From Budvicia aquatica DSM 5075 = ATCC 35567 (GTDB lineage: Bacteria; Pseudomonadota; Gammaproteobacteria; Enterobacterales; Enterobacteriaceae), in NCBI RefSeq assembly GCF_000427805.1, contig NZ_KE386585.1, positions 62,001 to 126,000 of the forward strand: 64,000 nucleotides of DNA, given 5' to 3'. Shown here one piece after another: positions 6,017-12,248 of the stretch. Below the pieces are notes generated by a model, which had not been told where the DNA came from, ran no database searches, and saw nothing but the letters and a program-made list of their open reading frames with translations. Position numbers and translations under genes: made by a program. Numbering within the stretch: position 1 is the first letter of the stretch; every line of letters starts with the position of its first letter.

Positions 6017-8779
6017 TCAGAAGCTGTATTTAACGCCAAACATTCCCTGTGTATCAGTATAGGAATCGGTGCCCCACTGCTGAGCCACGTTGGCCCACGT
6101 ACTGACGTTATTGCTAAGTTTACCTTCGATACCCAATTTCAGTTCGCCGATATCCTTCGCCCCTACCTGACTGTTTTTCACATCATTCATAATCACCGTA
6201 TAGTTCTCGGTATTATGAATCCAGTTCACTTCAACAAAAGGCTGGAACTCACGATCTTTACCGTCATCAATCTGGCTGTGTCCGTTGGCATAGGCTCGCA
6301 GGCCTAAGCGAGTCATCAGATTGTTATTGGTATCATCTTTCACCCGGGTACCGTTGGTTTCGGTGTAGTCATTAGCGCTTACGCCCATCCAGATAACCTG
6401 AGCTTTTGGCTGTAGCCAGTAGCTGGTACGCTCACTTTCACCCACTTTAAAACTATAGCCGCTTTCAATAGATGCGGTAACGCCGTCAGACTTATAGTCT
6501 TCCATATGCAGTTGTTCACCCTGTACTTGGTTGTTAAACCAGTTATACAAGGCCCAAGTATCTACATAGATACCGGTTTTATCGGCATTATTCGCGTACC
6601 AGGTGCCATACAGGCCAACGCTGTAACCGTCAACCTTACCGGTTGAGGAGTAACGGCTAACGTCTGAATGGGTTCTGCTGCTGTTATTAGCATAACCGGC
6701 CATTGCACCAACGTGCCAGCGGTCTAAGCCATCCGTACTCCATTGGGCTAAGTCCCCCCCTAATTGCATCACATAACGATTGCTGGTGGTACTCAACTGG
6801 CCGCTGCTGTCGTTAAAACGATTGTGACCGCCAACGTTGCGTAACCACATGCTGGTCACGCGTTTCTCGCCGGTTAACGCGTCGGTATATTGTGTTTCAC
6901 CCAGTCTGTCGTGCAATCTGGTGATAAACATAGTGTTAGCCGCCGCTAAGTTAGCAATATAGCTACCCGATTCAGGGCGATATACCGGATCAACATTGGC
7001 AGGCGTTGGGTTTGGTGTTGGATCCGGGTCCGGCGTTGGATCTGGATCCGGCGTTGGGTCCGGGTCCGGTGTAGGATCTGGCGGAAGTCCGGAAATCAGA
7101 TACCAGTTCTTAGCATCTGCTCCATTAATCGTTGAACCTGAACGAACAAAATAGTCATAAGAACCGGCAACAATACGTTGGCTATTGCTAAAGGTACCGC
7201 CTGAAAGACCACCTACCTCAACAATTTCTATCCCTTGAATGGTTTGCGCGCCGAAACCACCAATATTATTAATAGCAACGTCGGTATGGCCGGAGGTGTT
7301 GCCTTTAACGATTAACTTATCCGTCGCAGAAGCGTCATCACCCAAAACCGTATTGAGCACTAAGGTTCCGTTGTTACCGTTATAATCATTATCGACAGTT
7401 AGCGTCTTAGGCGTAAATGCAGCCCCTGCCAGCGGTTCACTGTATTTTAGCGTTGCGCCATTTAACGTTAGGTTAGTCAGCTCTGAATCACCGATCATAT
7501 TCCAGATACTGTTAACTCCATCAATATTTAAATTGATCACGCCTTGGTTATCAGTCACCGGGTTACCGCCGGCGTCATTGTAGGTATAGGTATCTAACTT
7601 GGTCATACCGGTAAAGTTACTGGTATCTGTCATTGCCAGATCAATCAAACCTGATTGTGCAAACAGATTACCGGTAATGTTGTAAATACCTGAAGCGCCC
7701 GATGTGACCTTAGCGGCATCATTAACGATAGTGCCCGCCCCATCATAGAGTTTGTCATCACTACCGATATAGTAATTAGTTTTAGATGAAGAAATAACGG
7801 AGCCATCACCTAAGGTATGCATCGCGTAAGCGGTATCAGGCTGAGCTAAAGTGATTGTAGTATCACCGGTGAGTTCGATTTTTCCGCCCAAGGCATTAAA
7901 ATTATTGCCGAGGGTTAGTTTTTTCTCCGCTCTGAGCGCATCAGCGCCTGAACCATCAGTAGAGATATTAACGGCGGCAGAGCTACCTTGTAGTTGTACA
8001 ACGCCACCTTTATTTGCATAAACCGCATGGCCATTATTGCCGGTGGTTTTTATGGTCGCACCTGAGCCGATAACGGCAACCGCATTGGTTCCAGAGGCGG
8101 TACCATTGGTTAATACGCTATCCCGGTTACCGGCATATACCGCGTAACCCAGCGTATTTGAGCCGTTAGTCCCTGTGCCGCCGGCCTGAATATTGGCATT
8201 GTCACCAATATAGGCCAAGTTATAGAAAGGAGCCTGAGACGATAAGTTAACCCGAACTGCAGTACCGTCTCTAACAATAATATTGCTGGACTGACCAAGA
8301 TAAACCCGCCCGTAACCCGCCCCGGTATTAGGGCTTTGCGCAACGTTAATTCCGTTGCTGTTGCTCCCGGTGGCAGTTAGCGTCGCATTATCACCGGCAA
8401 TTACCGTATAAACGCCATTCACCGATGAGGTACCATTAGTTCTAATGGCATCTACAAAGCTGCCTGATGTCGTTACCGTTAAGCTATCGCCAAAAGTAAA
8501 CGCCGGATGAGGGCCATTCATCGAGAAATAAATACCGTTAGTATTAGCGGTTTCATTTCCTCCGCCGATATTTTTACTGCCTGAAGTGGTAATAGTCACA
8601 TTGTTACCGCAGTTGTTAGAAGCGGTATAAGAGCCGCCAAAAACCGTGATATTGGTGATTGTTGCGCCATTTCCGCAGGCTACGTTTGCATCAGCCAGAG
8701 CAACATTACTCATTAATGGAACTAATAATCCGATTGATATAAAGGACTCAACAATGCGATTCCTTTTAAATATTTTCAT
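6017..8779 (-). CDS. Autotransporter 1 (type Va, 920 aa)
   Basis: A signal peptide (MKIFKRNRIV..., cleavage after ALA near residue 29) precedes a passenger of about 530 residues rich in Gly, Asn, Thr and Ser, with beta-helix-like character (repeated short N-G-[IV]-[TYN] steps). A Pro-Asp/Thr linker lies at about 565-592, encoded by 18-bp tandem repeats. The C-terminal beta-barrel runs from about VYRPESGSYIANLAAANTMF to the terminal GVKYSF, ending in Phe as BamA substrates do. Such proteins export their own passenger as adhesins or related surface factors; this passenger's function cannot be told. AAAGGA precedes the ATG. The barrel is strikingly similar to that of autotransporter 2. The gene lies downstream, on the same strand, of a fimS-like switch. 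Confidence 0.93.
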   Translation of the reverse strand: MKIFKRNRIVESFISIGLLVPLMSNVALADANVACGNGATITNITVFGGSYTASNNCGNNVTITTSGSKNIGGGNETANTNGIYFSMNGPHPAFTFGDSLTVTTSGSFVDAIRTNGTSSVNGVYTVIAGDNATLTATGSNSNGINVAQSPNTGAGYGRVYLGQSSNIIVRDGTAVRVNLSSQAPFYNLAYIGDNANIQAGGTGTNGSNTLGYAVYAGNRDSVLTNGTASGTNAVAVIGSGATIKTTGNNGHAVYANKGGVVQLQGSSAAVNISTDGSGADALRAEKKLTLGNNFNALGGKIELTGDTTITLAQPDTAYAMHTLGDGSVISSSKTNYYIGSDDKLYDGAGTIVNDAAKVTSGASGIYNITGNLFAQSGLIDLAMTDTSNFTGMTKLDTYTYNDAGGNPVTDNQGVINLNIDGVNSIWNMIGDSELTNLTLNGATLKYSEPLAGAAFTPKTLTVDNDYNGNNGTLVLNTVLGDDASATDKLIVKGNTSGHTDVAINNIGGFGAQTIQGIEIVEVGGLSGGTFSNSQRIVAGSYDYFVRSGSTINGADAKNWYLISGLPPDPTPDPDPTPDPDPTPDPDPTPNPTPANVDPVYRPESGSYIANLAAANTMFITRLHDRLGETQYTDALTGEKRVTSMWLRNVGGHNRFNDSSGQLSTTSNRYVMQLGGDLAQWSTDGLDRWHVGAMAGYANNSSRTHSDVSRYSSTGKVDGYSVGLYGTWYANNADKTGIYVDTWALYNWFNNQVQGEQLHMEDYKSDGVTASIESGYSFKVGESERTSYWLQPKAQVIWMGVSANDYTETNGTRVKDDTNNNLMTRLGLRAYANGHSQIDDGKDREFQPFVEVNWIHNTENYTVIMNDVKNSQVGAKDIGELKLGIEGKLSNNVSTWANVAQQWGTDSYTDTQGMFGVKYSF
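7014..7085 (-). repeat. 18-bp tandem repeats encoding the DPDPTP linker
   Basis: Three full 18-bp units (7014-7031, 7032-7049, 7050-7067) and a diverged fourth encode the Pro-Asp-Thr linker before the barrel. Units differ by a few bases. Gain or loss of a unit would keep the frame, so length polymorphism is possible without loss of function. Confidence 0.85.
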
Positions 8780-9010: not shown

Positions 9011-9289
9011 TTAAGAACAAACATCCCCGGTTAATATAAACATATGCCGACCGATCACGTTTAACCCTACGCCTAATTGTCTGGCTATTTCTTCGTTACT
9101 TTTTCCTTCGGACCACATTTTTTTAATCAATCGATGAATATCTGATTCATTTCCTTGGTAGAGATAATTGGCTTGAAACGTTCGATGACAGGCAACGCAC
9201 AAGTAGCGCCTAATTCCGGCTCTGGACTTACCGTGTCGGCGAACATACGTTTTCTCTTCACAGTAATGACAGCAAGGCTTTATTTCCAT
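9011..9289 (-). CDS. Orphan IS1 InsA-like zinc-ribbon/HTH protein
   Basis: 92 aa from the ATG at 9289 (GGGGA just upstream; the GTG at 9301 is an alternative). A zinc ribbon (CHYC ... CVAC) spans about residues 6-35, with the InsA-like block RRHGKSRAGIRRYLCVACHR. A helix-turn-helix follows (SNEEIARQLGVGLNVIGRHM). IS1 InsA binds the IS ends and represses transcription. No insB frame and no IS1 ends were seen, and the reading frame is intact, so this looks like a domesticated DNA-binding protein, not an IS copy. Position between a fim-type switch and an autotransporter suggests a regulatory role, which is inference. Confidence 0.75.
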   Translation of the reverse strand: MEIKPCCHYCEEKTYVRRHGKSRAGIRRYLCVACHRTFQANYLYQGNESDIHRLIKKMWSEGKSNEEIARQLGVGLNVIGRHMFILTGDVCS

Positions 9290-9485
9290 ACGTCCCCACA
9301 CATTGTTATTTGCAAAAAATTTAGACGTTATATTTAAATCTAATGATTAACGCAGTGCCGTTATCGCTATCGCCAACTCATGTTCAATTCATCATGATTG
9401 TGTTGCGATATTTAAATCCATTTCACCAATACCGGACAATCAAATAAACAACATTGCGCCCAGCGAAAAATTCGATCATCAAATA

Positions 9486-9686: not shown

Positions 9687-9746
9687 TTTCAACCCCCATC
9701 CTTAGATACAAAAGACAACCTTACTGGTACCTTCTCTGATTGACAT

Positions 9747-9755
9747 TTAGGACCA
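9747..9755 (+). repeat. Left inverted repeat of the switch
   Basis: TTAGGACCA, six of nine bases identical in register to the fim repeat TTGGGGCCA once the two G-to-A differences and ends are compared conservatively. Preceded by GACAT. Confidence 0.75.
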
Positions 9756-9977
9756 TTTTGACAATAAAAGTTTAAGATACCAAAATTAGCCGAATATCAT
9801 GGATGATATTCCTATTTTCAATCATTTTTAGTTTATTTAACTTTCGAAACTGAATGGTAAAAATTTAATAATTGATTTTTGAATATGTTATTTTAAGTTA
9901 TTTATTTCAAATACAATAAGTTGCTAAAAATTCAATTGCAAAACATCTCTTATTATTCAAAAAGATGATGTAGAGCA

Positions 9978-10625
9978 CTAGATATTTATTTCAGATTTAG
10001 CGACAATACCAAGGACGCCAACGCATACTTTACACTTTGGTCCTAATTGTCGTTTATTTTGTATATTTTTTAATCGCCATATTCCCCTGAATCTTGCTGC
10101 ATTACTCGCCGTATACCGCACCGTATGGCGAATGTTCCGGTGTCCGAGATAATCCTGAATTAATCTGGTATCAATGCCCCTGTCTGCCAGAGCAAAACCG
10201 CAGGCATGACGCAACATATGCGGATGTGACTCAAACGAACATTGCGCTTGTTTTCCTAGCCCGCGAATAATGTTGTAAAATTGTTGCCTTGATAGCGCCT
10301 TACCTTTTGAGGTGGCAAAGAGCCAATCACACTCCATATCAGCTTCAAATCGGCGCACATTTAACCACTTTTTTATTACCTGGATTTCCTTTACCAGCAA
10401 AGGATGTACCGTTGAAAAGCCATTTTTAAGCCGACTGACATTCAGCGTCCCACCGCGTAGATCTAAATCAGAAATGCGTAAGCCCAGCAGCTCGCTGGCC
10501 CTTAACCCATGCAAATAAGCCATATAGATCAGGCAATAATTCCTTTCACTATGACGAGTCGTCCGGCTGGCTTCCAACAGTGCTTCAACCTCGGGTCCTG
10601 ATAAATACTTTCTTTTTGGCATCAT
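9978..10625 (-). CDS. FimB/FimE-type tyrosine recombinase 1
   Basis: 215 aa tyrosine site-specific recombinase with all catalytic residues visible: Arg42 (HGLRASEL), Lys67, His136 and Arg139 (HPHMLRH), His162 (GHRNIRH) and the nucleophile Tyr171 (VRYTASN). It is close to E. coli FimB and FimE, which invert the fimS promoter element. FimB-type proteins end near residue 200; here 19 extra residues follow Leu194-Gly195-Pro196, which are encoded by the right inverted repeat of the switch. In the flipped state the frame would read Pro-Phe-stop, giving 197 aa. GAGGTGG precedes the ATG. It is arranged in tandem with a second recombinase 330 bp upstream. Confidence 0.92.
   Translation of the reverse strand: MMPKRKYLSGPEVEALLEASRTTRHSERNYCLIYMAYLHGLRASELLGLRISDLDLRGGTLNVSRLKNGFSTVHPLLVKEIQVIKKWLNVRRFEADMECDWLFATSKGKALSRQQFYNIIRGLGKQAQCSFESHPHMLRHACGFALADRGIDTRLIQDYLGHRNIRHTVRYTASNAARFRGIWRLKNIQNKRQLGPKCKVCVGVLGIVAKSEINI
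10038..10046 (-). repeat. Right inverted repeat of the switch, inside the recombinase gene
   Basis: TGGTCCTAA on the plus strand, which is codons TTA GGA CCA of recombinase 1 read on the minus strand. Followed by TTGTC, which pairs with the GACA outside the left repeat. Confidence 0.75.
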
Positions 10626-10954: not shown

Positions 10955-11566
10955 TCAGTCCATTTTTAATACTATATCCGGGCTAGTATTAAATACCATT
11001 TGAGGTTCCGACATATTTTGCCATGCGCGATTAAATCGCTTGGGATTGCTGGCAGTATAGTGCACCGTATGCCGAATATTACGATGACCAAGATAATCCT
11101 GAATCAGTCGAGTATCCATTCCTTGATCGGCTAAACTATAGCCGCACGCATGCCGCAACGTATGCGGATGTAAAATAACCGGCAAGTTAGCTTGCTCACC
11201 GTACTTTCGAATTAAACTATAAACCCACTGTCGGGAAATTCGCCCTCCTTTATTAGAGGTAAATAACCAGGGATTACTTTGATTGCTTGGTTTTTTATTA
11301 CGCTGGGTAATCCATTTCTCTAACAGCGTAATTTCACTATCCAATAACGGATGTATGGTCGAAAAACCATTTTTTAATCGTGCAATATAAAGCGTCTGTG
11401 AAACCATATCGATATCAGAAACCCTTAAACCGGTTAACTCACTGACTCGTAGCCCGTGGATATAAGTCATAAATAGCATACAACGGTCCCGATAATAATC
11501 GGGCTCATCCGGTAATTGTTTAAACACCAACTCCCACTCATGCTTGGTAATATAGCGACGCTGCAT
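10955..11566 (-). CDS. FimB/FimE-type tyrosine recombinase 2
   Basis: 203 aa, the normal length for the family. Catalytic residues are Arg40 (HGLRVSEL), His135 and Arg138 (HPHTLRH), His161 (GHRNIRH) and Tyr170 (VHYTASN). The two recombinases here are clearly paralogous but diverged, like FimB and FimE. In E. coli one protein switches both ways and the other mainly ON to OFF; which does which cannot be told from sequence. AAAGGCAGAG precedes the ATG. No further copy of the TTAGGACCA repeat was noticed next to this gene, so both enzymes probably act on the one switch. Confidence 0.92.
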   Translation of the reverse strand: MQRRYITKHEWELVFKQLPDEPDYYRDRCMLFMTYIHGLRVSELTGLRVSDIDMVSQTLYIARLKNGFSTIHPLLDSEITLLEKWITQRNKKPSNQSNPWLFTSNKGGRISRQWVYSLIRKYGEQANLPVILHPHTLRHACGYSLADQGMDTRLIQDYLGHRNIRHTVHYTASNPKRFNRAWQNMSEPQMVFNTSPDIVLKMD

Positions 11567-11930: not shown

Positions 11931-12248
11931 TTACATATCTTTTTTAAGCTTCTCAAATGAAGCTTTCAACTTACTCAGAAATGAAGACTGAGCGTCTTTT
12001 TTACATGCATCGATAACGATCGGCGTTATCTTTTCAATTCCGTCAACGTCAAGCACCGCGTCTTCCACCGTCCCTTTTTGGTTTAAAAGGGCACCAATAC
12101 CTACCGCTGTCGGCTTATAGCTTTCATCTAAGGCAATAAAATCCTCACAGGTCCACGATTTTATTGGCTTTTTTGTTTCTGCTGCATTAGACATAGTTGA
12201 AAATATCAATAAACTTGCAGCACCGATCAATAACATCTTGATTTTCAT
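11931..12248 (-). CDS. hdeA: HdeA-type periplasmic acid-stress chaperone
   Basis: 105 aa. A signal peptide (hydrophobic ML LIGAASLLIF region, cleavage near SNA at 20-23) is followed by a mature domain with KPIKSWTCEDFIALDESYKP, then EDAVLDVDGIEKITP, and a C terminus ending in KKDM, all as in E. coli HdeA. The two conserved Cys (34 and 82) form the disulphide of the family. HdeA unfolds at low pH and keeps periplasmic proteins soluble. The gene stands alone with its own terminator. Presence suggests passage through an acid habitat such as a gut. Confidence 0.9.
   Translation of the reverse strand: MKIKMLLIGAASLLIFSTMSNAAETKKPIKSWTCEDFIALDESYKPTAVGIGALLNQKGTVEDAVLDVDGIEKITPIVIDACKKDAQSSFLSKLKASFEKLKKDM

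Follow-up and report, generated by a model that had tools for sequence, protein, structure and literature searches.

A putative ipuS/fimS-type invertible element with one arm inside a recombinase gene, probably switching an autotransporter in Budvicia aquatica

In the 64,000-nucleotide stretch of Budvicia aquatica DSM 5075 DNA analysed here (the window), two recombinase genes lie beside a pair of short inverted repeats, one of which falls within the coding region of the first recombinase. This arrangement raises the question of whether the enclosed segment is an invertible switch, which genes it would control and whether a change at the end of the recombinase upon inversion is a form of feedback, as the initial annotation had suggested. 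On the basis of homology, we consider it likely, with a probability of about 0.85, that the segment is an ipuS/fimS-type invertible element switching an autotransporter; the inversion, the promoter, the ON/OFF polarity and the targets are predictions for this organism. The features of the locus are listed in Table 1.

Table 1. Features of the putative switch locus, in positions of the window.
Feature	Position	Strand	Remark
920-aa autotransporter, AC_1 and autotransporter beta domains	6017-8779	-	Probable switched target; same direction, downstream
96-aa InsA-like protein (IS1 N-terminal zinc-binding)	9011-9301	-	Presumed member of the target operon
Distal arm, GACAT + TTAGGACCA	9742-9755	+	9-bp repeat at 9747-9755
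Distal-arm inner half-site TTTTGACAA	9756-9764	+	Would supply Phe and stop TGA to recombinase 1 once inverted
Putative invertible element, ipuS/fimS type, 300 bp	9747-10046	none	Assigned from half-sites and homology
Recombinase 1, 215 aa, FimB/FimE/IpuA-type tyrosine DNA invertase	9978-10625	-	Leu194 onward encoded within the element
Proximal-arm inner half-site AAGTGT (read from recombinase 1)	10032-10037	-	
Proximal arm, GACAA + TTAGGACCA	10038-10051	-	Its 9-bp repeat (10038-10046) holds the codons for Leu194-Gly195-Pro196 of recombinase 1
Recombinase 2, 203 aa, groups with IpuB	10955-11566	-	
HdeA/HdeB-family protein	11931-12248	-	Directly upstream of recombinase 2

The two 9-bp repeats, TTAGGACCA on the left and TGGTCCTAA on the right, span 300 bp from outer end to outer end, and the arms extended outward agree at 13 of 14 bases with the GACA flank counted, just as the initial annotation had described them. 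Perfect 9-bp inverted repeats with an outer length of 200-400 bp are common by chance: the 64-kb window contains 107 of them, and one was present in 79% of 500 dinucleotide shuffles of the 1.4-kb region of the locus, with a 14-mer pair matching at 13 or more of 14 bases in 10% of these shuffles. The repeat alone is therefore no evidence of a switch, and the case depends on the identity of the arms to fim half-sites and on their conservation in relatives. The arms share a core and differ in their inner flanks: the flank toward the recombinase gene is AAGTGT, the one at the opposite end TTTTGACAA. Both correspond to fimS-type half-sites, in which TTAGGACCA is followed inward by AAnTGT or TTTTGAC. 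A pair of inverted repeats that carries fim-like inner half-sites and encloses about 260-330 bp, a feature of an ipuS/IpuA-type switch, is present in the window.

NCBIfam DNA-invertase models matched both recombinases, which the initial annotation had assigned to the FimB/FimE type, with recombinase 1 above the curated cut-off and recombinase 2 slightly under it (218.3 versus 221 bits). Both are intact, with the catalytic residues R42, H136, R139, H162 and Y171 invariant in a 35-row alignment. Recombinase 1 shares 50% identity with IpuA of Escherichia coli CFT073 through the arm-coded segment, where LGPKCK is aligned to FDPKCK, and recombinase 2 shares 54% identity with IpuB. A quick tree of 105 rows placed recombinase 1 with IpuA (SH-aLRT 88, under the tool's 95 mark) and recombinase 2 with IpuB (SH-aLRT 97); long branches were flagged, and several of them leave the deeper joins of this tree unsure. 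Reading the inverted segment in frame yielded a recombinase 1 of 197 aa ending in LGPF-stop, compared to 215 aa in the present orientation, which bears out both the proposed short form and the position assigned to the right arm in the gene.

The locus appears to be a relative of ipuAB-ipuS of CFT073, an architecture that is supported by these comparisons and is already known. In PMC6083910, ipuS is described as 260 bp long and bounded by 7-bp repeats, of which the distal repeat lies within ipuA; the OFF orientation gives full-length IpuA, and the ON orientation removes 11 residues, changes the last one (K-L in the text, K to F in the figure legend) and allows transcription of ipuR and upaE, with inversion and promoter published in 2018. 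In the same account, IpuA inverted ipuS in either form, full-length or truncated, in an assay that was not quantitative (PMC6083910), and inversion of ipuS by all five Fim-type recombinases is reported in PMC6458436. In the CFT073 locus sequence, the IpuA tail is HFDPKCKPNLCLEILV and the inverted frame reads HFDPF-stop, a change from Lys to Phe that agrees with the figure legend. The CFT073 half-sites are AAAATGT and TTTTGAC, and the arms as placed here span 275 bp outer to outer, compared to the 260 bp published. Common to both loci are two FimB-type recombinases, a short element, an arm in the 3' end of recombinase A, an inverted reading frame with Phe and a stop in place of Lys, and an autotransporter as target, which in the window is the probable target. 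However, the window has 9-bp arms (TTAGGACCA) rather than the 7-bp TGACCCA, a 300-bp element rather than one published as 260 bp, a predicted C-terminal truncation of 18 residues rather than 11, tandem rather than divergent recombinase genes, and a small InsA-like gene where CFT073 has the LuxR-type ipuR. RefSeq annotates a frameshift in CFT073 upaE (L157 7816-15767), yet published work treated its protein as functional.

The initial annotation had compared the locus with fimS. The fimS element has 9-bp arms, the inner half-sites AACTGT and TTTTGAC and a length of about 315 bp, and the window shares with it the arm length, the same pair of inner half-sites and a similar element length. In 14 fimS-type loci, however, the arm core lies 19-55 bp past the recombinase stop codon, whereas the window has an arm within the ORF; the target is fimbriae for fimS and, in the window, probably an autotransporter. 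The two features of fimS proper, arms outside the recombinase ORF and a fimbrial operon as target, were accordingly absent from the window. The contrast with fimS drawn in the initial annotation thus holds, but the arm inside the gene is no novelty, as ipuS of CFT073 is built alike (PMC6083910). The AACTGT arm faces the recombinase in 13 of the 14 fimS-type loci, and in E. coli E69 the half-sites are exchanged, the outcome that inversion produces. In the OFF phase of fimS, the AACTGT arm adjoins the recombinase, and by analogy the present orientation of the 300-bp element would be OFF-like.

Conservation of the locus was examined in 99 genomes, among which Budvicia diplopodorum (G001) was the sole other Budvicia genome, so that the genus is compared with one genome per species. 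The locus is present in this close relative together with both recombinases, and the repeats are retained: the arms agree at 35 of 36 bases, whereas the element interior is 61% identical. Positions 9747-9764 are identical at 18 of 18 bases in the B. diplopodorum locus L031 and in two further switches of that genome, L133 and L134. Arms and asymmetric half-sites are likewise conserved across genera while the interior has diverged. Exact paired TTAGGACCA arms with a flipped frame of LGPF-stop were found in 6 of 14 loci examined, namely those of the window, B. diplopodorum, Yokenella regensburgei, Erwinia endophytica (two) and Serratia quinivorans. With a looser arm pattern, 17 recombinases out of 105 unique ones have the arm within the ORF, several of the 17 being near-copies; the count leaves out L034 (open frame over the filter length; flip to LGPF), L065 (distal arm TTCTGAC) and L144 (both arms AAAATG). 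Thirteen of the 17 have a short form of 196-200 aa, and for the other four, the L147-type Salmonella plasmid proteins, it is 218 aa by the start codon of the script and 197 aa by the annotated 660-base L147 gene. In the tree, a branch with support of 99 separates the 17 arm-inside rows from the 14 fimS-type rows; the 17 form two clusters, with rows for which no arms were found between them. The arm-inside set takes in loci on Salmonella, E. coli, Pantoea and Providencia plasmids, and among the downstream annotations in these plasmid regions are CaiF/GrlA regulators, inverse autotransporters, fimbriae, Tad pilus genes and TibA. The ipuS arrangement thereby reaches beyond uropathogenic E. coli, to the genus Budvicia and, on the basis of homology, to chromosomes and plasmids of other Enterobacterales, where it would stand before differing surface structures.

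A search with TNRGGNCCATTTTGACAA matched in 7 of 392 genomes of the family, with three sites in B. diplopodorum and six in another genome (G032). B. diplopodorum thus has three switches but one intact recombinase pair. The orphan switch L133 (G001:C17, 7591-7893) precedes an autotransporter 79% identical to that of the window, and L134 (G001:C33, 8063-8361) precedes a different autotransporter with an InsA-like gene behind it; at both, a recombinase 1 remnant with stops adjoins the proximal arm. Recombinase 1 had ten matches in this genome, two of which are the intact pair and the other eight either frames of 310-381 residues at 27-30% identity, which we name Xer- or integrase-like, or broken pieces. 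The arms of the orphan switches agree at 34-35 of 36 bases and the interiors at 55-68%, with binomial tails of 1e-7 to 2e-5 that serve only as a guide, since one interior stretch is also identical at 18 of 18 bases (L031 versus L133). The retention of arms beside dead recombinase 1 remnants suggests that the orphan switches are acted on in trans. The three switches, the one intact pair and the arms kept beside dead remnants are what is new here, and a literature search by title, with subscription journals mostly uncovered, listed no title that dealt with the locus or with ipuS-type switches of the orphan kind.

We lean toward a reading in which one ipuAB-like pair runs the autotransporter switches of Budvicia in trans and new switches arise by copying of the whole recombinase-switch-adhesin cassette. 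Since one arm is part of the recombinase gene, each orphan switch would then retain a dead stump of that gene. As part of the same reading, G032, a genome of the same family, may show this design on a wider scale. It has six switch arms (L136-L141), three of them within 400 bases of contig ends, and five lie near surface genes of various kinds, namely two usher operons (L139, L140), a fimbrial gene (L141), an inverse autotransporter (L136) and a YadA-type adhesin (L137), with L138 as the sixth arm. Recombinase 1 tail remnants are present at two of the six (L139, L140), and the genome has a single FimB-type gene that is intact, besides two N-terminal pieces, one at a contig end. In Bacteroides fragilis, of a different phylum from Budvicia, the recombinase Mpi likewise serves several distant switches, as we infer for B. 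diplopodorum. Mpi acts on 13 inversion sites (work cited in PMC6083910), whereas B. diplopodorum has only three switches, with a putative action in trans. Arms beside dead stumps provide a natural test that separates the site as DNA from the site as protein code, and they suggest how multi-switch adhesin networks grow. In the genome of the window itself (5.67 Mb, 120 contigs), searches with distal- and proximal-arm patterns found no second switch: the distal arm at up to three mismatches gave six sites (the known arm at 0 and the other five at 3) compared to three control matches, and the proximal-arm pattern occurred once.

The initial annotation had left the likely target unnamed. The autotransporter gene is probably the target, and the InsA-like gene probably the first gene of the target operon. 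The 96-aa protein gives a match, below the cut-off, to IS1 InsA over the N-terminal region of the latter (NCBIfam NF033558, E 3e-14) and is possibly a domesticated regulator in place of ipuR. InsA-like genes also occur near B. diplopodorum autotransporters (L031 9724-10005, and L134 4596-4889 at 64% by BLAST). A consensus scan found no convincing promoter in the window element (shuffle fraction 1.00 in 300 single-base shuffles), with 9 promoter-like sites in 2.7 kb versus an expectation of 11.2. The scan is insensitive, as it also misses the published promoter of the CFT073 element (0.90). Outward promoter-like sites beside the proximal arm had a fraction of at most 0.09 in 6 of 13 elements (L032-L035, L139, L140), and none of the 13 had such a fraction beside the distal arm. 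This proximal-arm signal was absent in the window (1.00), L031 (0.73), L133, L134, L149, L152 and CFT073 (0.90). By the proposed mechanism, recombinases 1 and 2, as relatives of IpuA and IpuB, would cut and rejoin the DNA at both TTAGGACCA arms and turn the segment round. In the present, OFF-like orientation, a promoter inside the element would be directed toward recombinase 1. Once the segment is inverted, transcription from it would leave the element across the left arm and enter first the InsA-like and then the autotransporter gene, and the adhesin would be displayed by a minority of cells. Inversion would also swap the C-terminus of recombinase 1, from 215 aa to 197 aa ending in LGPF, because one arm sits in the last codons of the gene and the site's own sequence, CCA-TTT-TGA, is read in frame.

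The initial annotation took this swap for a possible feedback; as a selected feedback, the 215-aa and 197-aa forms would differ in activity or direction and so bias the switch. Tyrosine recombinases can act on adjacent subunits through their C-terminal tails, and the arm is in frame in all 17 unique arm-inside recombinases, with a flip that always gives [G/D]PF and then a stop, either immediately or after one further codon. However, the tail past the arm is wholly different between the sister Budvicia species (KCKVCVGVLGIVAKSEINI versus KCQSTGFQDAIFYE). The stretch that follows the PxC motif is 0 to 25 residues long in the 17 recombinases, and L152, L150 and L035 have little or no tail. The arms persist beside dead recombinase copies, so that their conservation needs no coding role, and the inversion of ipuS by both IpuA forms, in the non-quantitative assay mentioned above (PMC6083910), also argues against a selected difference. 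Of the proposed feedback, only the change of frame holds; selection for it seems unlikely, and the swap is most likely a tolerated by-product rather than a main feedback, although it may have some influence on activity. A structure model of recombinase 1 reached a mean pLDDT of 56 with 7 rows and 76 with 35 rows; in the latter, pLDDT is below 50 across residues 186-215 and low from about residue 151, catalytic Tyr included, and the model therefore says little about the tail.

A further alternative is that the element was once invertible and is now locked in its present orientation. Only one orientation was seen: no flipped copy was present among the loci of the 17 unique arm-inside recombinases, all in the long-form orientation, or among eight full-length Salmonella plasmid copies, and the window element lacks a clear promoter. 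However, E. coli ipuS, whose inversion is published, is also in one orientation in all 231 genomes carrying it (5426 searched). This call was made with a 700-bp CFT073 query that was covered at 80% or more in one place in 231 of 231, where a flipped copy would by reckoning cover about 61%, and a query of 100 bp from ipuA alone likewise found 231 E. coli genomes. Moreover, the intact recombinases with their five invariant residues, and the preservation of the arms over a diverged interior between the two Budvicia species, are not expected of a fossil, which we regard as improbable. A chance repeat inside the gene, with no switch, is hardly credible: common as such repeats are at this spacing, the arms and asymmetric half-sites are conserved across genera despite the diverged interior, and the half-sites are shared with fimS and ipuS. 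These comparisons favour a fimS-like switch with one arm inside the recombinase gene, which the initial annotation had proposed and which is well supported by homology.

Two observations concern related loci. The Salmonella plasmids NZ_CP019190.1, NZ_CP017721.1 and CP074271.1 (L147, L148, L155, L160-L187) carry several recombinase-switch copies each, with three full-length copies on two of the plasmids, two on the third and diverged pieces besides. Finally, L142 and L143 (G399, G177) have the same arms with TTTTGACAA on both inner sides, and there the recombinase stops short of the arm.
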